Both the position numbers and the translations under genes were made by a program. Below the pieces are notes generated by a model. The model was not told where the DNA came from. It searched no databases and saw only the letters and a list, made by a program, of their open reading frames with translations. From a virus, in IMG/VR virus record IMGVR_UViG_3300010885_014582, positions 1-64,000 of that record: 64,000 nt of DNA, one strand, 5' to 3'. The first letter of the stretch is position 1. The number at the start of each line of letters is the position of its first letter. This document shows positions 9,678-54,287 of this stretch, in pieces.

Positions 9678-9887
9678 TTAACAACCTGAACGGGCTTTGT
9701 GAAATGGTGGAACACCAAATGTACGCTTTGGTTCAGATGCTTCTTCGTCTAGTTCTGATACATGACTAGCAATTTCAGAAGCATCAACGCCTCCCCATGC
9801 TGCTTTTTGTACAGCAATGTGATTAGCCATAATTGCTTCACGGTCAACACGACCAGCACCATTAGGACGGTGTACTCCACGGGGCAT
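9678..9887 (-). CDS. Tagged small protein, RPNGAGRVDR family, copy 1
   Basis: 69 residues beginning MPRGVHRPNGAGRVDREA. The first 16 residues are nearly identical to the starts of the proteins at 9891 and 10322, while the remainders are unrelated. DNA around the start, including bases before the ATG, is also nearly identical to the 10322 copy. The C-terminal part is acidic, then basic (PKRTFGVPPFHKARSGC). Confidence 0.65.
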   Translation of the reverse strand: MPRGVHRPNGAGRVDREAIMANHIAVQKAAWGGVDASEIASHVSELDEEASEPKRTFGVPPFHKARSGC

Positions 9888-9890
9888 TAT

Positions 9891-10109
9891 TTATCCCTCT
9901 TCATTATTTTGTGGGACAGAAGGTGTATTGAAATACTCTTCAAGACGACCTTGCGCTTCTTGATGGTCGGCTCGTTGTGCCATGCGATGGTTGTGCACAT
10001 CAATACGGGCTTTGGTTAACGAAGAACTGAACAGTGGGTAACGCATTGGTTTAAATGAGTCACGGTCTACACGACCTGCACCATTAGGGCGATTTTTTCC
10101 ACGAGGCAT
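9891..10109 (-). CDS. Tagged small protein, RPNGAGRVDR family, copy 2
   Basis: 72 residues beginning MPRGKNRPNGAGRVDRDSF. The body is unrelated to copies 1 and 3 and is rich in charged and His residues (VHNHRMAQRADHQEAQGRL). No hydrophobic core is evident. It sits 3 bases from copy 1. Confidence 0.65.
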   Translation of the reverse strand: MPRGKNRPNGAGRVDRDSFKPMRYPLFSSSLTKARIDVHNHRMAQRADHQEAQGRLEEYFNTPSVPQNNEEG

Positions 10110-10111
10110 GA

Positions 10112-10318
10112 TTATTTCTTCTTCTTCTTTGGGCGGGGGATACCTTGGGCTGGTGCCTCATCGGTGTCCTGTGAGTGGGTTACAGAAGGGTCTGCCTTCT
10201 TTGGTTGCATAGACGGGTGGTTCTGTCGAGGATCAAAGTTGACTCGGTAAACATTGCCTTCACGACTAACTTGTCGTCTTGGGCTTTGAGAAGTATCTTT
10301 ACCATCATTATTAGGCAT
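10112..10318 (-). CDS. Small basic protein with poly-Lys tail (68 aa)
   Basis: Starts MPNNDGKDTSQSPRRQVSRE and ends in a run of five Lys after QGIPRP. It looks intrinsically disordered and could bind nucleic acid. It lies between copies 2 and 3 of the RPNGAGRVDR family but lacks their tag. Confidence 0.55.
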   Translation of the reverse strand: MPNNDGKDTSQSPRRQVSREGNVYRVNFDPRQNHPSMQPKKADPSVTHSQDTDEAPAQGIPRPKKKKK

Positions 10319-10321
10319 TAC

Positions 10322-10543
10322 TTAGTAAGCACCTTTGGGATTTAGTTTGGCAGACTCAGGAAAATGAGCGTCTAATCCGCCGTCCATGTCATCCATAAGT
10401 TCTGGATTTTCTTTTTCATGCTTTTCGTAAGCCGTCATAGGTCGTGAATCCTGTGGATTCATTGTTTTTTTACTATAATTACCACCAAATGAAGCACGGT
10501 CAACACGACCAGCACCATTAGGACGGTGTTCTCCACGAGCCAT
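10322..10543 (-). CDS. Tagged small protein, RPNGAGRVDR family, copy 3
   Basis: 73 residues beginning MARGEHRPNGAGRVDRASF. The body is acidic (EKENPELMDDMDGGLDAHFP) and ends KLNPKGAY; a similar GAY ending occurs in the protein at 11344. The start overlaps the preceding stop (TAATG) with GGAG upstream. Confidence 0.65.
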   Translation of the reverse strand: MARGEHRPNGAGRVDRASFGGNYSKKTMNPQDSRPMTAYEKHEKENPELMDDMDGGLDAHFPESAKLNPKGAY

Positions 10544-13441: not shown

Positions 13442-13792
13442 CTAAGTCCAGCGAGCCATATCGTTGTCAAGTTGTGCATCATATGCTTGGTTTGCTGGTT
13501 CAGGAGAAGGGAATTGTGCACTACTAATGCCATGTCCTCCGCTTTCACCAGATCGCATAACCTGACTTGTCGCATAACTTCTTGCCATAGATGCCATGGC
13601 ACTTCTGGCTCCCATTCCTGCGCCAGCAGTTGCGGCTCCAGCGCCAGCGGCTTCAGCGCCAGCGGCTCCAGCAGTTGCGGCTCCAGCAGTTGCGGCTCCA
13701 GCAGTTGCGGCTCCAGCAGTTGCGGCTCCAGCGCCAGCGGCTTCAGCGCCAGCGGCTAAACCCAATGCGGCTAGTATTGCTGGTAAAGGCAT
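13442..13792 (-). CDS. Ala/Gly repeat protein (116 aa)
   Basis: After a short hydrophobic start (MPLPAILAALGLAAGAEAAG) about 40 residues consist of AATAG/AEAAG-type repeats. These are followed by a Met/Ser-rich helix (ARSAMASMARSYATSQVM), then SGESGGHGISSAQFPSPEPA. The repeat part could form a helical or membrane-active segment. The repeats come from 15-bp and 27-bp tandem DNA repeats, so copy number may vary. Confidence 0.6.
   Translation of the reverse strand: MPLPAILAALGLAAGAEAAGAGAATAGAATAGAATAGAATAGAAGAEAAGAGAATAGAGMGARSAMASMARSYATSQVMRSGESGGHGISSAQFPSPEPANQAYDAQLDNDMARWT
13626..13757 (-). repeat. Tandem 15-bp and 27-bp repeats within the Ala/Gly gene
   Basis: The 15-base unit GCAGTTGCGGCTCCA occurs four times in tandem (13671-13730) and once at 13626-13640. 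A 27-base block starting GCGCCAGCGGCTTCAGCG is present at 13641-13667 and again at 13731-13757. All units keep the reading frame. Confidence 0.85.
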
Positions 13793-13800
13793 AAGTCTCC

Positions 13801-14091
13801 TTATTTAATCACTGGTTTAAATGATATCGCAGAAATGGTATCTCCATTTTCACCTTTGATGTCATCAAATCCAATGATGAAAGTAAGGTCAATCCCTCTT
13901 GGTGCTACGAAACCACGGGAAATAGCGGCGGCTTTAGCCGCTTGGTTAACTGCTGATGCTCCAATAGCACGCATTTTAGGCAATTGCCCTGCGTTAATGG
14001 CACGAGCCAAAATGGATCCGACGGATTGAGGGTTACTAGAACCCGACACCTTCAAGACATCGTCAATAGTTGTGTTCAATTCTTGTGACAC
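13801..14091 (-). CDS. SpoVS-like (Alba-superfamily) protein
   Basis: A 96-residue protein clearly resembling stage V sporulation protein S. Matching elements are DVLKVSGSSNPQSVGSILAR (about residues 11-30), MRAIGASAVNQAAKAAAISR (about 40-59), GFVAPRGIDL and a final ISFKPVIK. SpoVS is a small dimeric protein of proposed nucleic-acid-binding Alba-like fold that affects sporulation and division in Bacillus. GTG 14091 is preceded by AAGGAG at 7 bases. It lies at the edge of the DNA-metabolism module, so DNA or RNA binding is the natural inference. Confidence 0.8.
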   Translation of the reverse strand: MSQELNTTIDDVLKVSGSSNPQSVGSILARAINAGQLPKMRAIGASAVNQAAKAAAISRGFVAPRGIDLTFIIGFDDIKGENGDTISAISFKPVIK

Positions 14092-14123
14092 AGTTGTACT
14101 CCTTGTTATAAGTTGTACCTATT

Positions 14124-14489
14124 CTAGTTGAATCCAGCGTCCTCTAGTAGTTGAACCAAATCATCTAACCGAAGTACAGCGTAAGACTCACCTAACGCTT
14201 TTTCTCCCTTACCAGCACGCTTGACCACCAAGACGGGTAAACCATTACCTAAACGACCTGCTTGTTCGACTGTGTCATTAAGCCATTGACTCAGTTGGAA
14301 GGCTTTCTGGTTCTTGCACTGCACCGCCACTTTACGCATGTCTGTCCTACGGGCAATACCATTGACATCACCCGTGTCGTTACCACCTGAAAGAGCAGGT
14401 CGGTGGGCATGGATAAAGCCTTTATTAATTAAATAGTCTCTTACAAGTACCTCAAAGGATGTTCCTTTGGCTTTGGCTTTGTTACTCAT
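14124..14489 (-). CDS. Holliday-junction-resolvase-like PD-(D/E)XK nuclease
   Basis: A 121-residue protein beginning MSNKAKAKGTSFEVLVRDYL. The sequence GTSFE, then GGNDTGDVNGI (Asp of motif II) and KVAVQCKNQK (Q-x-K) follows the resolvase/Hjc-type layout, with the usual Glu replaced by Gln; VRR-like enzymes also vary here. ATG 14489 overlaps the HNH stop (ATGA). A role in resolving recombination or packaging junctions is inferred. Confidence 0.6.
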   Translation of the reverse strand: MSNKAKAKGTSFEVLVRDYLINKGFIHAHRPALSGGNDTGDVNGIARRTDMRKVAVQCKNQKAFQLSQWLNDTVEQAGRLGNGLPVLVVKRAGKGEKALGESYAVLRLDDLVQLLEDAGFN

Positions 14490-14917
14490 ATCAACAATCC
14501 TTTTCTGTCTTTGCTCCATTGGTTTACGCACTGCACACAACGCCTCCAACCCTTCTTATCAATGTGTGTATTTTCTTCATCAAAAGGGTGACCATTTTTG
14601 CAATGAGTTTTATTGGTATGCCAATTTCTGCCTTTTGCTATCATATCTGCCGTATTCAGAGCATTCGTTCCTGCCATAAGGTGCCTTGGATTTACACATG
14701 ATGGTTCGTCACATACATGCATTACAACTGGCGGATAGAAACCGTTAGCAAGAAAGAATGAGTAACGGTGTGCGCCAATCTTTTTATCCCTAACCCTAAA
14801 CTTGCCGTAACCATGGTAAAGATGACCCCGCCAAAGCCAGCACTCTTCATGGGAACCAATATCCACTTTGGTCCAGAATCTTTCAGTTGTTTTGTTTGCA
14901 ACATATCTCTTAGCCAC
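14486..14917 (-). CDS. HNH endonuclease (homing type)
   Basis: A 143-residue protein with the family's WLWRGHLYHGYGKF motif, AHRYSFFLANG, and the core VMHVCDEPSCVNPRHLMAGT that supplies the His-Asn-His metal site. A second Cys set (HCKNGHPFDEEN, RRCVQCVNQW) forms a C-terminal zinc knuckle. GTG start at 14917 overlaps the upstream small gene by 8 bases. Such free-standing HNH genes are often mobile, but the tight overlaps suggest long residence here. Confidence 0.85.
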   Translation of the reverse strand: MAKRYVANKTTERFWTKVDIGSHEECWLWRGHLYHGYGKFRVRDKKIGAHRYSFFLANGFYPPVVMHVCDEPSCVNPRHLMAGTNALNTADMIAKGRNWHTNKTHCKNGHPFDEENTHIDKKGWRRCVQCVNQWSKDRKGLLI

Positions 14918-15287: not shown

Positions 15288-15547
15288 TTCATGTCCCCTT
15301 TGTATGTTTTGGCAGTGCTCTGAAGATAGCCAGTACCCATTTTAGTAATTACCCAACCTGTAGGTACTTTTTTAACTAAGTTGTACTTTTCAAGCATTGC
15401 CATAGATTCTTTAGTACGAGAAATACTCCTGAATTTATTTGGAAACATTGCGTAAACATCTTCAGCAGTAACTGGCTTGTTCTTCATGACAGCGTATTTA
15501 AGTGCACAGTGGGTAGACCCACCATTAAGGATTCGTGGTGTGCTCAT
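15284..15547 (-). CDS. Small winged-helix-like protein (87 aa)
   Basis: The pattern VTAEDVYAMFPNKFRSISRT, then SMAMLEKYNLVKKVPTGWVI suggests a winged-helix DNA-binding domain with a C-terminal wing hairpin. It overlaps the upstream gene by 4 bases. Possibly a regulator or replication accessory. Confidence 0.5.
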   Translation of the reverse strand: MSTPRILNGGSTHCALKYAVMKNKPVTAEDVYAMFPNKFRSISRTKESMAMLEKYNLVKKVPTGWVITKMGTGYLQSTAKTYKGDMK

Positions 15548-16044
15548 GGCAAGTACCGAGCCTGACGACGCTCTTGTGGGGCAAGACCAATACGGCGACT
15601 CAACTCACGGCTTAGTACTTGAGCACCACGCTCACACCGTTCAAATACAGATTCAACCAGTTTGCGGTATGCACGGCACTCCGAATAAACATTCTGTGCC
15701 TCAACGACCTCTGGGTTGATGTCCCTATGAGCCTTGGCAAGTGTGACAGTGTCACCCTTTTCCTTGACGCCCCATTGACTGATAAGGACCATTGACTCAG
15801 TCAAGCGCAAATCGTTTGCGGCTCGTTCTTCTGCGATCTCTGCTTGTACATAATCAGACTTAGCGTAGGAAACCCACGACATAAACTGGTTGTACAGCGA
15901 CATCAAGTCACTATCTGATAACTCGTCTAACAGGTTGGGAACTACTGGAATCTCCGTCACTGGCTTGTCTGGAAGATCGAACTTCTTTTGAAACCTCGCT
16001 ACTACTGGATCCACTGGGCGGTTGCTCATCACTACTCTTGTCAC
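15544..16044 (-). CDS. Helical hypothetical protein (166 aa)
   Basis: Long helices throughout (LLDELSDSDLMSLYNQFMSW, EIAEERAANDLRLTESMVLI, RAYRKLVESVFERCERGAQV). GTG 16044 is chosen because AAAGGAG lies 7 bases upstream. It overlaps the C-terminal coding part of the Cas4-like gene by about 130 bases in another frame, an unusually long overlap. No family recognised; its location suggests a partner of the recombination enzymes. Confidence 0.55.
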   Translation of the reverse strand: MTRVVMSNRPVDPVVARFQKKFDLPDKPVTEIPVVPNLLDELSDSDLMSLYNQFMSWVSYAKSDYVQAEIAEERAANDLRLTESMVLISQWGVKEKGDTVTLAKAHRDINPEVVEAQNVYSECRAYRKLVESVFERCERGAQVLSRELSRRIGLAPQERRQARYLP

Positions 16045-16810
16045 TCCAACACTCCTTTTTGAATGGACAACTTTTACACACACGATTCTCTGGGGAAACC
16101 CATGATGGTCGATCTGGTGGGATACCTGATTCTATCGCCCTTACAACAGAATGACACGCACCAAGTATGGGATCAACAATTTCTGGTTGATAGGAAATAG
16201 AGAATTCTTTTACAGCCTGCGTTGCTTTCCATTCGTACAAGATGACTGCTTGATCAATGCCAAGACAGTACATGTACAACTGTGTTTGACGCACATGTGA
16301 ATCAAACGGAAACTTAATGCGGTTCCACAACTCATCAAGAGTAATTTCTTTTTTACCGTAAGGTGCAAACAGTCCGTAATCTTCCATACGAACAGTTCCT
16401 ACGCCAACACTTTTGATCTCAAGTACTGCACGACCTTGTTTGTCATTGATGATGCCATCAGCATGACCAATGATGCGGTGCTCTTCATTAAAGATGGGTG
16501 CTTCAATAGACTCCATCAATCCTGCTTCAGTAAGCCAACCTTGCCACTTACCATGAATAAGATGTCCTTCAGCAAAGATATTTAATCGTTGAAGAGTGAA
16601 AGACTCTGGCGCTTCTTCACGACCATTGATGCGGTACCAAGATGACCGAGGGCACCAATCCTTCTTACATATCTCAGAAGGGTGCAAATGTAGTTTGTCA
16701 CGCTCAGTGCTGGTCTTAGAGTTGTTCTCTAGTAGAAGTCTCTCAACAGGCGCTAGGAGTCTGTGGGGGCTATTGATAAGCCTCTTCATGTCTGCTGGGT
16801 TAATAGCCAT
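15911..16810 (-). CDS. Cas4/RecB-like PD-(D/E)XK nuclease with Fe-S cysteines
   Basis: A 299-residue protein. Motifs in order: CKKDWCPRSSWYRI (first Cys, about residues 49-62), HADGIIND (motif II Asp), AVLEIKSV (E-x-K), RQTQLYMYCLG (QxxxY) and CKSCPFKKECW (C-terminal Cys trio, about 247-257). This is the Cas4-type 4Fe-4S exonuclease layout. After it comes a Ser-rich tail that overlaps the next gene, so the real end may be functionally earlier. It sits beside RecA and probably processes DNA ends for recombination. No Cas genes are present, so a CRISPR role is unlikely. Confidence 0.8.
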   Translation of the reverse strand: MAINPADMKRLINSPHRLLAPVERLLLENNSKTSTERDKLHLHPSEICKKDWCPRSSWYRINGREEAPESFTLQRLNIFAEGHLIHGKWQGWLTEAGLMESIEAPIFNEEHRIIGHADGIINDKQGRAVLEIKSVGVGTVRMEDYGLFAPYGKKEITLDELWNRIKFPFDSHVRQTQLYMYCLGIDQAVILYEWKATQAVKEFSISYQPEIVDPILGACHSVVRAIESGIPPDRPSWVSPENRVCKSCPFKKECWSDKSSDEQPPSGSSSSEVSKEVRSSRQASDGDSSSSQPVRRVIR

Positions 16811-17136
16811 TACTCGCCAACCATTTCTACAAAATCATCTTCTACAAGAACTACATACCGACGACCAGCAAGGTCAAACTGCAACACGGGTGTGCGGTCT
16901 TCTGTGATGGCTCGCTCAATTAATTCACGAAGGTCAACTTCTTTTAAGGTGATTGACTTCTTGTTGATAGTCAGTTTGTTTTCAAATAGAAACTCTGTTG
17001 AACGAACATCATTCTTCCGCAACCAACCACTACCAGAACCTGCATTGCGACTACCCTTGTAGGTGTTGGCTGTGCGCTGTTCCTGTTTCTTGGATTGCTT
17101 CATGATACTGCGCTTTTCATCAGCGCCAAAGGTCAT
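16810..17136 (-). CDS. Putative resolvase/VRR-like nuclease
   Basis: A 108-residue basic protein. GSRNAGSGSGWLRKNDVRST followed by FLFENKLT gives an N-D-V...E-N-K arrangement like PD-(D/E)XK resolvases, then VDLRELIERAITEDRTPVLQ and a final strand. Overlaps RecA by 4 bases and abuts the Cas4-like gene, consistent with a recombination operon. The catalytic assignment is tentative because motif spacing was judged by eye. Confidence 0.5.
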   Translation of the reverse strand: MTFGADEKRSIMKQSKKQEQRTANTYKGSRNAGSGSGWLRKNDVRSTEFLFENKLTINKKSITLKEVDLRELIERAITEDRTPVLQFDLAGRRYVVLVEDDFVEMVGE

Positions 17137-18152
17137 GATTCAATACCGTACTTAGCGAATACTTCTCCTCGAAGTTTTGCTTGGAGACCAAGGTCTTCAC
17201 GGACACCATCAAGGACTTTGTCTTTGCCTTGCCACTTCTGTCCGTCATACGAATAGAAGGCACCAGCACGCTCGATAAGACCAGAGGCAATACCAATGTT
17301 GACCATGTCCTTGACAACATCAAAAGATCCAAATGAATAGTTCTCGGAGTCAGCAAAGTAGAAGTCAATTACTGCACTCTGCTGTGGACGATGTGTCTTG
17401 TTCTTAATGGTGCGACCCTTAATGGTCTGACCTACGGTCTCGTCCTTTTCTTTGAGCCACTCATCACGCTTAACTTCTACACGGCAGAAGTAATGGAAGT
17501 TCTTTGCCTTGCCACCTGGAGTTGTACGGTTGTCTCCCCACATGACACCAATCTTCTCACGCCACTGGTTAATGATAAGACCAGTACAACCACGGTCTTC
17601 ATTAACAAGAGAGCGCTTCTGAGACTTAGACGACTTACGAAAGAACTTGCCAGTAAGACGGGCACCAAGACCTACAGTGAACTCTTCCATCATCTTTTCT
17701 GCCTCTGCGTCTGGAACAAGAGCAGGCAATGAGTCAATAACAATCATGTCTACTGCACGGTTATCCAACGCACGGATAGCAAGGTCATACACCTGCTCCA
17801 TGATGTTGTTCTCAACAATCCAAAGACGGTCAAGATCTACACCAATTGATTGTGCATACTGAGGGACAAAGTCTTCAGCCGCAATCCACATAGCGCAAAA
17901 GTCTGGGTCAAGTGCTTGGTTAGCCGCAATGGTCTTGTATGCCATAGCAGTCTTACCTGAGGACTCTTCTCCAATGATTTCACTCCACTGGTTTACAGGC
18001 CAACCTCCGCCAAGCATGAGGTCATAGGACAGTACACCTGTAGTGATGCGTGGGATTAACTCACGAACATCAGATCCTTTTACAATCGTTCCTACACCGT
18101 TCTTCTTATTGATAGATGCAATTATTGATTGTAATGATTCGTAGTCTGACAT
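17133..18152 (-). CDS. recA: RecA-like recombinase
   Basis: A 339-residue protein with Walker A GEESSGKT (residues 61-68), Walker B-type DMIVIDSLPAL, and the L2-region TGLIINQWREKIG followed by TTPGGKAKNFHYF, as in RecA (GG-K-A core). It catalyses ATP-dependent strand exchange. GAGGATAA lies just before ATG 18152; an upstream in-frame start at 18197 would overlap the previous gene deeply. Placed between the polymerase and Cas4-like nuclease, it implies a phage-encoded recombination pathway. Confidence 0.9.
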   Translation of the reverse strand: MSDYESLQSIIASINKKNGVGTIVKGSDVRELIPRITTGVLSYDLMLGGGWPVNQWSEIIGEESSGKTAMAYKTIAANQALDPDFCAMWIAAEDFVPQYAQSIGVDLDRLWIVENNIMEQVYDLAIRALDNRAVDMIVIDSLPALVPDAEAEKMMEEFTVGLGARLTGKFFRKSSKSQKRSLVNEDRGCTGLIINQWREKIGVMWGDNRTTPGGKAKNFHYFCRVEVKRDEWLKEKDETVGQTIKGRTIKNKTHRPQQSAVIDFYFADSENYSFGSFDVVKDMVNIGIASGLIERAGAFYSYDGQKWQGKDKVLDGVREDLGLQAKLRGEVFAKYGIES

Positions 18153-18153
18153 T

Positions 18154-18537
18154 TTATCCTCTTGGTGTTGCTTGATCGTACATGCCGTTCCAACCACACT
18201 CGTAACAACGAGGGGCTGGTGAATGACCGTTGATCATAGAATTAGAACCTCGACCTGTTCGTGAAAATACATAAATACTTCCGCAGTCGGGGCAGGTCAT
18301 GTTACCTTCTTTACGCATGGCTTCACCACCTTTCCATAGACGAAGTGCTTCACCCATAGTCAAGTTTTCAGTAGGTGCCCGATTAGGGTCAAGAACATCT
18401 TGCCGTTCAGCCTGCATAGGTGATGACATAGGGACAGACGCTGGAATGTGCACAGGTGCAGACAACGGAGGAGTTTGGTAAGTCCGTTGTGGTGTAGGTT
18501 GTTGACCACCAAGTTTTTTTGTCCACCAATCAGTCAT
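18154..18537 (-). CDS. Zinc-ribbon protein (127 aa)
   Basis: The N-terminal two thirds is Pro/Ser/Gln-rich linker. The C-terminal part has CPDCGSIYVF and PRCYECGWNG, a C-x2-C...C-x2-C zinc ribbon. A short helical segment MGEALRLWKGGEAMRKEG precedes it. Located between PolA and RecA; possibly a DNA-binding accessory factor. The start at 18537 is preferred over ATG 18549, which has no ribosome-binding-site spacing. Confidence 0.6.
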   Translation of the reverse strand: MTDWWTKKLGGQQPTPQRTYQTPPLSAPVHIPASVPMSSPMQAERQDVLDPNRAPTENLTMGEALRLWKGGEAMRKEGNMTCPDCGSIYVFSRTGRGSNSMINGHSPAPRCYECGWNGMYDQATPRG

Positions 18538-29227: not shown

Positions 29228-29493
29228 TGGCTTCTAAGAAAGACCCACGCTTAGAGCGTGCAGGTGTCTCAGGTTTTAACAAACCAAAAGCAACACCTGA
29301 CCATCCAACGAAGTCTCATATTGTTGTTGCCAAAGAAGGTGACCATATTAAAACTATTCGATTTGGTCAACAAGGTGTACAGGGATCACCTGATGGCTCT
29401 GCACGCAATGAGGCATTCAAGGCTCGGCATGCAAAGAATATTGCTAAAGGCAAAATGAGCGCCGCTTACTGGGCAAACAAGGAGAAGTGGTGA
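29227..29493 (+). CDS. Conserved small phage protein (DUF6321-like)
   Basis: An 88-residue basic protein with the blocks DPRLERAGVSGFNKPKATPD, HPTKSHIVVAKEG, IRFGQQGVQG and FKARHAKNIAKGKMSAAYWA. This arrangement occurs in a widespread small phage protein family, which I recall as DUF6321. Molecular role unknown. It overlaps the start of the Dps gene. Confidence 0.6.
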   Translation: MASKKDPRLERAGVSGFNKPKATPDHPTKSHIVVAKEGDHIKTIRFGQQGVQGSPDGSARNEAFKARHAKNIAKGKMSAAYWANKEKW

Positions 29494-29924
29494 GTGCACT
29501 AACTAATGATTTAAAGACACTGTTATCTGATTCGGTAACAATGTACTTTGTTGCCCACGGGTATCATTGGAATGTGGAAGGTCCTGACTTTAGTCAGTAT
29601 CACGAGTTGTTTGCTACTATCTACGAAGATGTTTATTCCAGCATTGACCCTATTGCTGAAGACCTTCGCAAACTAGATGAATATGCACCCTTCACCCTAA
29701 GTAAGTTTATTGAACTCAGGACGGTTGAAAGTGTCGAAGTGGCACCTAACCCCAAAGCAATGGCAAAAGCCCTGCTAAAGGTCAATGAGGGTGTCCTCGT
29801 GACAATCGGCAAGGCTTTTGCGTCGGCTACTAAAGCCAATGAACAGGGTATTGCTAACTTCTTGGCAGAGCGAGATGACATGCACAAGAAGTGGCATTGG
29901 CAGTTAACTGCCTCAACTAAGTAA
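29490..29924 (+). CDS. Dps-like ferritin
   Basis: A 144-residue four-helix protein. The dimer-interface ferroxidase residues of Dps are present with exact spacing: His26 (HWNVEG), His38, Asp53 and Glu57, i.e. +12, +15, +4, as in bacterial Dps. Dps cages oxidise and store iron, protecting DNA from Fenton chemistry; some also bind DNA. GTG 29490 overlaps the preceding stop (GTGA) with GGAG upstream. It ends 12 bases inside the convergent gene at 29913. Confidence 0.8.
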   Translation: MSALTNDLKTLLSDSVTMYFVAHGYHWNVEGPDFSQYHELFATIYEDVYSSIDPIAEDLRKLDEYAPFTLSKFIELRTVESVEVAPNPKAMAKALLKVNEGVLVTIGKAFASATKANEQGIANFLAERDDMHKKWHWQLTASTK

Positions 29925-52524: not shown

Positions 52525-53139
52525 CTATTTTTTAGAATCTCGTTCTTGCATAAAGGATTGGAAGGGTGCTCCCGTGTATGGATCAAACTTACTAGCCACG
52601 GTAATTGCCTTATTTGCAACGGTTTTAGCCTGCTGTGGTGTCAACTGTTTACCTACCGCAAGGGTGTGTAAAGCGCCCAAAGCGTAAGAGGAACCTGTAC
52701 CTACAGCGTAAATACCATTGCTATCGCTAGTCCAAGAGTAGTCACCCTCAAGAATATAGATAGTCCCATGGACAACTACAATGATGGTTGACCCTTGTTC
52801 AGCAATATGTTCTTTGTCATCTTTTGCTGAGGAATAACCCTGCTCGTCAAAACAAGACCTAAGAGAAGGTATGAACTGACGGGTAATGAACTGATCAAGT
52901 TTCTTACCAAGAGTATTGGCAGGTGGTATTGGTGGAACAAACACATGCTGAAGGATGTTGATTGCTCGAACATCTCCAGCAGCGCCCATGATGTACTTAC
53001 CATTAGCGGCAATCTTGGATGTTCCAGCCCCAAGGGTAGTTACCTGATATGCCGACCCTGAGTCGTCAAATGAGGCAATACGACTATCTGTGCAAAGTAC
53101 CGCATAGTTGTCACCTTGGATACCCACAATAGTTGTCAT
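52525..53139 (-). CDS. Proteasome beta / HslV-like Ntn hydrolase
   Basis: 204 residues. After the initiator Met the chain reads TTIVGIQGDNYAVLCTDSR, so Thr2 would be the N-terminal nucleophile, with Asp18 at the family's position 17 and a Lys (SKIAANG, Lys42) as the basic residue. YIMGAAGD and GTGSSYALGALHTL match conserved HslV/20S strands. Ntn hydrolases of this kind form rings that degrade or process proteins. ATG 53139 overlaps the phosphoesterase stop (TAATG). Substrate unknown; capsid processing is a speculation. Confidence 0.75.
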   Translation of the reverse strand: MTTIVGIQGDNYAVLCTDSRIASFDDSGSAYQVTTLGAGTSKIAANGKYIMGAAGDVRAINILQHVFVPPIPPANTLGKKLDQFITRQFIPSLRSCFDEQGYSSAKDDKEHIAEQGSTIIVVVHGTIYILEGDYSWTSDSNGIYAVGTGSSYALGALHTLAVGKQLTPQQAKTVANKAITVASKFDPYTGAPFQSFMQERDSKK

Positions 53140-54287
53140 TAGGCGGTGTATTCCTTGTTGTGGTACATCGCCCAACCATCTCGGATGGGGATCATCTCAA
53201 GGTTGAATTCGGCATCACCATCTTTGTAGTTGACTACACAGAGACCCTGTTGCCAGTTCTCAGTGATTGTCATCGGGCGACCGTCAAGGTCGATACCACC
53301 TTTAGTAGATGGTACAGCGCCATCAACACGAGCAAGGCAACCAGCAGAAGCCGCAAGGATGGTCTTACGACCGTCATAGTCTTCACGGGTTACTTCTGCC
53401 CACTCACGGCGGTGGATGTGTCCATAGAGCACTGAGGTCTTTTCATTAGCCAAATACATGTGTGCTGTAGAGCCGTTGCTTTTAACACGAGTACCATGGA
53501 TAACTTTCAACTTCTGATTAATCCAATAGTAACCAGCAGGGTAGCCAGGAACATATTGAATATTGAAATCATTAAAACGACAGAGGAACGGAACCGAAAG
53601 TACGGGCCAGTTGTCTGGTGTGTCTCCACGCCTCAAACCAAAAGAAGCCTTTGCATTATCTAATGTGTAGTTAACAAGACGCTCTTCATGGTTTCCAGCA
53701 AGCCAAACAATTTCAGCGTCAGGAGCAGCAGCACGAATACGAGCCATAAGAATTGTTGCGTAGTCAATTGATTTTTGAGTTGTCAATGCATAGGCAGGAC
53801 TAAGTCGGTATTTACCAAACTCAGCAAAGTCCAAGTTGTCACCATGCATGACTACTTTTTCAGGCTTTAAATCCTTGATCATTGCAACGCAGATGTCGAT
53901 AGCCCGCTCATCATGGATACCTTCAAGTTCACCTAATGCATTACGAAAGTAGCCGATCTGCATGTCAGGTAGGACTACTGCTGTATTCCACTCTGTTTTC
54001 TTTGGTGTTTTAGTTACATTGTTTGTTGGCAATTTAACAGCAGGACCTTGGTTAACAGGATCCCATTCAGGACCTTCTGCCCACTTTGGTGAGAACTGAA
54101 TAGCCGCAAGGTCGTGAATTTGTGCTTCACCATCTTGGTCTTTAGTTAGTGATTGATAAAGAGATACACGCTTTACTGAACCAATTTCGTCAATGTCAAT
54201 CTTCTGACGATCAAGAATCTCAAGAAGTTTTCCAAGAGCCTTAGCGTTGTTTGCTGGTTTGTCTAGATCATTCGCCAAGTTGCTCAC
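53139..54287 (-). CDS. Calcineurin-like metallophosphoesterase
   Basis: 382 residues. Metal-binding motifs in order: VVLPDMQIGYFR (D-x-Q variant of DxH), VVMHGDNLDF (GD), VWLAGNHEERL (GNHE), KVIHGTRV (H) and VLYGHIHRREW (GHxH). An N-terminal ~130-residue part is helical and could bind nucleic acid. GTG 54287 with GGGGAG seven bases upstream is preferred over ATG 54302. Substrate unknown: DNA end processing or RNA/nucleotide cleavage are possible. Confidence 0.8.
   Translation of the reverse strand: MSNLANDLDKPANNAKALGKLLEILDRQKIDIDEIGSVKRVSLYQSLTKDQDGEAQIHDLAAIQFSPKWAEGPEWDPVNQGPAVKLPTNNVTKTPKKTEWNTAVVLPDMQIGYFRNALGELEGIHDERAIDICVAMIKDLKPEKVVMHGDNLDFAEFGKYRLSPAYALTTQKSIDYATILMARIRAAAPDAEIVWLAGNHEERLVNYTLDNAKASFGLRRGDTPDNWPVLSVPFLCRFNDFNIQYVPGYPAGYYWINQKLKVIHGTRVKSNGSTAHMYLANEKTSVLYGHIHRREWAEVTREDYDGRKTILAASAGCLARVDGAVPSTKGGIDLDGRPMTITENWQQGLCVVNYKDGDAEFNLEMIPIRDGWAMYHNKEYTA

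Follow-up and report, generated by a model that had tools for sequence, protein, structure and literature searches.

Knowledge of SpoVS dates back to 1995 and is based on its phenotype. The family (PF04232) contains the proteins of Bacillus subtilis and Thermus thermophilus (2EH1 and 2EK0). PMC8510167 describes cellular SpoVS by its phenotypes only, and no established biochemical activity of the cellular protein was found in the literature examined. The family has been assigned to the Alba superfamily in a survey whose text does not include phages (PMC11621453). Viral spoVS genes are also known already; they have been catalogued from soil and marine viromes as auxiliary sporulation genes (PMC6172770, PMC8940887; PHROG 35646), and the published reading is that they manipulate sporulation. 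The resolvase context of these genes was not found described, and no paper on a connection between SpoVS and Holliday junctions emerged from a literature search judged by title and abstract.

The SpoVS gene described here belongs to the same family as these viral genes, and the evidence from its locus places it in a recombination module, in contrast to the published reading. It lies in the window, which is the whole stretch of 64,000 nucleotides that was analysed and comes from a freshwater phage. No second SpoVS gene occurs in the 94,013-bp record from which the window was taken.

The SpoVS gene, its product and its cellular relatives

The gene (13801-14091, minus strand) encodes a SpoVS-family protein of 96 amino acids from a GTG start codon. 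A Shine-Dalgarno sequence, AAGGAG, was read about 6 nt 5' of the start codon (sequence and spacer approximately 14092-14104, minus strand). The start and the Shine-Dalgarno sequence are conserved across relatives (the best 80 loci, representing 40 distinct proteins), and AGGAG is kept in most of them. The coding sequence is under strong purifying selection, with a median dN/dS of about 0.07 for pairs with unsaturated dS, and the open reading frame is a real gene. Promoter and terminator scans gave signals at the level of shuffled sequence.

The original prediction claimed homology to SpoVS, and a profile search returned PF04232 with 70 bits against a cut-off of 24 (E 1.4e-19). All three sequence blocks quoted in that prediction (KVSGSSNPQSVG, AIGASAVNQA and RGFVAPRGID) were found in the protein, which is also matched by PHROG 35646, annotated as “sporulation protein”. 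A tail-fibre identity (PHROG 12846, E 5.7e-4; short tail fibre 9cuy, E 0.042) was considered and rejected, the matches being weak, partial and probably due to chance.

An AF2 model of the protein (pLDDT 89.4) has disordered residues 1-9 followed by the order E-H-E-H-E-E, the beta-alpha-beta-alpha-beta-beta fold that is common to cellular SpoVS. The model matched SpoVS structures best, namely the chain in the integrative model 9a7h (Z 16.4) and the Thermus protein (Z 15.5), with an rmsd of 1.2-1.4 over 85-86 residues. Archaeal Alba proteins, some of them in complex with DNA or RNA, came next in the structure search (Z about 10), so that the Alba-like fold expected in the original prediction is borne out by the predicted structure. 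The fold is like that of archaeal Alba/Sso10b over about 80 residues at an identity of about 11-21%, whereas the lysine pair of the Alba beta1-alpha1 loop, numbered Lys16/Lys17, is absent from the window protein. Binding of nucleic acid by this protein is plausible from its fold.

Cellular and phage SpoVS share invariant Gly44, Ala45, Asn49, Gln50, Lys53, Gly66 and Phe75 in the sampled sets. In contrast to the cellular type, the phage type carries Arg41, Arg65, Lys39 (Glu39 in cells) and a disordered N-terminus of about 10 residues. Residue 41 is Arg in all 109 resolvase-linked sequences and in 4/4 Bacteroidales-type sequences. All 13 bacterial-type phage sequences have Gln at this position, and the 78 sampled cellular sequences, largely from Firmicutes, have Gln or His. 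Arg65 is likewise present in 109/109 resolvase-linked sequences and also occurs in one cellular sequence (L503). The original prediction had proposed a phylogeny of phage and bacterial copies. In the tree that was built, the window clade forms a single branch, and a split with 100/100 support separates resolvase-linked phage SpoVS from the sampled cellular copies, again mostly of Firmicutes.

The window protein does not have the features of a bacterial-type, recently host-derived copy, as it falls on a branch apart from the sampled cells and carries Arg41 and not Gln41. Bacillus-type phage copies (LysYB1, KLEB27-3 and L485-L501) have no resolvase beside them, and those included in the tree group with Firmicutes. 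A plasmid origin was also considered and rejected; the only plasmid copies found were of the Firmicute type, mostly from the Bacillus group. Typical SpoVS was present in 181 of the 199 genomes of a survey aimed at Actinobacteria, from which no host inference was drawn. The gene neighbourhoods also differ: the phage gene adjoins a Holliday-junction resolvase gene, whereas the cellular gene lies near ymdB (40/54 full-flank loci) and is often within 5 kb of recA (33/54 sampled full-flank loci).

The phage and its recombination module

The capsid and portal proteins of the window match tailed-phage families, in agreement with the assignment to a phage in the original prediction. They are closest to those of BRock-type Streptomyces phages (58-60% and 52%, respectively), followed by Bacteroides phage BS162P1 (37% and 27%). 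An actinobacterial host may be guessed from the kinship with BRock. At the nucleotide level, the first 8 kb gave no match to phages. Several other genes were observed in the record. A proteasome-subunit-like protein (Ntn hydrolase; 52525-53175, minus strand; PF00227, 34 bits against a cut-off of 22.4) is encoded in the head module near the portal and capsid genes and is perhaps a prohead protease. A tryptophan halogenase gene (PF04820, 343 bits) is located among the tail genes at genome positions 65686-67197 (L002 5686-7197), and a Ferritin/Dps-like protein (PF00210, 59.7 bits) is encoded at 29487-29924 on the plus strand.

Relatives of the SpoVS protein were found on at least 549 viral contigs with one query. 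A second clade accounts for at least 578 contigs, and the two sets may overlap. Among relatives picked by their capsid protein, each of the 14 records of at least 60 kb contains one SpoVS gene. SpoVS was present in 15/17 capsid-picked records overall, the two misses being fragments of 48.9 kb and 49.6 kb. SpoVS belongs to the core gene set of the clade and is no occasional passenger. It is also the most conserved protein of the module, with a median identity of 83% in the capsid-picked relatives, as compared to 75% for RecA, 68% for the second resolvase, 64% for the adjacent resolvase, 61% for the polymerase and 45% for Cas4.

The module consists of same-strand genes in the order RecA/UvsX, PHROG-2002 resolvase, Cas4-type exonuclease, small protein, PDDEXK (Hjc-like) resolvase and SpoVS, all on the minus strand. 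The RecA/UvsX-like recombinase (17133-18197) matches PF00154 (177 bits) and PHROG 97. The second Holliday-junction-resolvase-family protein (16810-17136) matches PHROG 2002 (E 7.3e-20); a RuvC-like identity was rejected for this protein, as the RuvC profile gave no match and resolvases are grouped only generically in PHROG 2002. The Cas4/RecB-type exonuclease (15911-16810) matches PHROGs 1706, 2506 and 1990. The small conserved protein (15544-16083), to which no function is assigned, was found in 75/75 relatives with room for it, and a distant homologue is encoded at the corresponding position of a gut phage. This gene and the exonuclease gene overlap by more than 100 nt in different frames, as they do in several relatives.

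The gene directly upstream of SpoVS (14124-14489) encodes a nuclease of 121 amino acids of the Hjc-like PDDEXK Holliday-junction-resolvase type, and ends 32 bp before SpoVS; a longer frame to 14549 is also open. The protein fits a resolvase family profile (PHROG 244, “RusA-like Holliday junction resolvase”, E 3.1e-26) and PDDEXK_15, and its AF2 model has a PDDEXK/Hjc fold with archaeal Hjc as the best structural match (Z 8.4). Cleavage of four-way junctions by this enzyme is putative. An HNH endonuclease-like frame (14486-14917, minus strand; weak HNH_3 match) lies between module genes but is present in this phage only, with no match in 77 relatives with room for it, and is a probable mobile (homing) insertion that does not belong to the conserved module.

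The original prediction placed SpoVS at the border between a cluster of tagged genes and the recombination module. This was close to correct: the conserved part of the module ends with SpoVS, and the genes downstream of it vary among relatives. In the window, it is directly followed by a gene (13442-13792, minus strand) for an Ala/Gly-rich protein with repeated GAATA units, which was found in 1/69 relatives with room for it. The tagged cluster downstream of SpoVS includes several small proteins (9678-10543, minus strand) that open with the tag M-P/A-R-G-x-x-RPNGAGRVDR.

The resolvase slot upstream of SpoVS

The Hjc-like resolvase gene lies directly upstream of SpoVS in 79 of the 80 relatives, which is 79/79 of those with room for it, and the gap between the two genes is 31-49 bp in 76 of the 79 window-clade loci. 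A resolvase-type nuclease gene lies directly upstream, i.e., within 300 bp, in 188 of the 203 distinct viral SpoVS loci. Three unrelated folds occupy this slot: Hjc-like PDDEXK (168 loci), RuvC (14) and endonuclease VII (6). These classes were checked on representatives (PHROGs 244, 159 and 307; Pfam endonuclease VII, 94.7 bits; Pfam RuvC just below its cut-off). The 15 exceptions comprise 12 bacterial-type copies, one RuvC gene at a distance of 670 bp and two loci without room. Two resolvase-family genes were found among about 116 predicted genes of the window phage, so that a random neighbour would be a resolvase in about 2% of cases.

The 203 loci are from related phages and are not independent, and the repeated swaps are the informative part of the count. 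In a SpoVS tree built from about 95 columns, in which many forks are poorly resolved, about seven switches of nuclease class are required, with adjacency to SpoVS kept throughout, and all three classes occur inside the BRock-like subclade. If SpoVS is coupled to resolvase function, the slot should remain a resolvase despite replacement of the enzyme, and the loci behave as expected. The original prediction contained neither the association with a resolvase, nor the exchange of resolvase folds, nor the phage-specific Arg41/Arg65 signature.

The same order of resolvase and SpoVS is found in the cultured Streptomyces phages BRock, LuckySocke and GiJojo. These Borockvirus-like modules share homologous capsid and portal proteins with the window phage, and SpoVS directly follows the resolvase in both; the nuclease is annotated as RuvC-like in the cultured phages, whereas that of the window phage is an Hjc-like PDDEXK protein. 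Deeper relatives are of the Bacteroidales type. In one of them, the gut phage MT835482, a Hjc/PHROG-2002-type nuclease gene directly precedes SpoVS, and the pair is preceded by a Cas4-type exonuclease and by the distant homologue of the small module protein. A nuclease of the same type, recognised by visible similarity to the L521 protein, lies right before SpoVS in the viral contigs L526 and L527. The slot of Bacteroides phage BS162P1 (L520 2937-3941) holds an HNH/NUMOD4 endonuclease whose C-terminal part matches the PHROG-244 resolvases and whose N-terminus resembles that of the intact L521 resolvase, as would result from insertion of a homing endonuclease into the resolvase gene. Two “Bacteriophage sp.” records, MT836246 (L088) and MT835471 (L522), were rejected as phage SpoVS loci and are probably mislabelled; both have the ymdB-spoVS chromosomal neighbourhood of Firmicutes.

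Possible roles of phage SpoVS

On balance, the locus favours a role of SpoVS as an Alba-like nucleic-acid-binding accessory of phage recombination-junction processing. The protein would most likely form a dimer, as Alba proteins do. A basic surface with Arg41, Lys39 and Arg65, together with the conserved Asn49, Gln50 and Lys53, may bind branched or duplex DNA arising from replication and recombination, and the SpoVS-bound DNA would then become the substrate for whichever junction resolvase the phage carries, before packaging. DNA binding, a preference for junctions and a functional partnership with the resolvase are suggested because the enzyme has been swapped repeatedly beside a conserved Alba-like protein. 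As a precedent, host Alba was co-purified with the Hjc-type resolvase of SIRV2, a virus of archaea, possibly via nucleic acid (PMC3157427). Several points stand against this role. Adjacency of genes is not physical interaction, and the slot is partly inherited among related lineages, in which the swaps could reflect recombination beside a conserved anchor gene. Strong nonspecific DNA binding is not obvious from a protein that has no Alba lysine pair and a net charge of about +1, and proteins of the Alba fold also bind RNA or proteins.

A broader version of the junction role is doubtful, although conceivable. SpoVS would be a general accessory of Holliday-junction processing for resolvases of any fold, the phage genes would reveal the activity of the whole family, and the sporulation phenotypes of cells would lie downstream of a role in DNA recombination or chromosome handling. 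This reading of cellular SpoVS is drawn from the proximity of spoVS to recA noted above.

The Alba fold, the status of SpoVS as a core gene of the lineage and the extra basic residues relative to cellular copies would also suit a chromatin or nucleoid-type protein that coats and organises replicating DNA, and adjoins the resolvase merely as a late gene of the DNA module. This is unlikely, as it gives no reason for the slot to remain a resolvase when the fold is exchanged, and the net charge of the protein is low. A role in RNA binding or translation, such as regulating expression of the recombination genes, is quite improbable. The fold relatives include Alba, YhbY and IF3-C, with structural matches to Alba-RNA (3wbm), the Alba proteins of RNase P/MRP and IF3-C, and cellular spoVS is commonly near ymdB; the phage neighbours, however, are DNA nucleases and RecA, with no RNA genes.

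The catalogued reading, by which the phage steers spore formation or septation of its host, is very unlikely for the window-type gene. Bacillus SpoVS affects septum formation and the timing of sporulation (PMC8510167), viral copies carry the auxiliary-gene annotation, and such a role may apply to the Bacillus-type copies without a resolvase. The window-type gene, in contrast, is fixed within a DNA-recombination module, forms a branch separate from the sampled cellular copies and differs at residue 41. A sporulation role is further disfavoured because a Bacteroides phage carries this type of SpoVS; Bacteroides is not known to form spores. Interference with host division, as suggested in the original prediction, fares no better: SpoVS is present in every large relative checked, beside DNA-junction nucleases, and in a Bacteroides phage. 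Least probable of all is a role as a protein-protein adaptor or decoy, e.g., in counter-defence, in which the target would be host phosphoesterases or nucleases and not nucleic acid. A cross-linking model of B. subtilis SpoVS with YunD, according to the title of PDB 9a7h, and the adjoining phosphodiesterase gene ymdB in cells point in this direction; evidence from the phage side is nil, and conservation peaks in the DNA module.

If the link between SpoVS and the resolvase of the recombination module is functional, the SpoVS family would gain a testable activity, namely binding of branched DNA together with a resolvase. The sporulation annotation of viral spoVS in several virome studies would be corrected, and the SpoVS-resolvase pair would provide a bacterial-virus parallel to archaeal Alba and Hjc.
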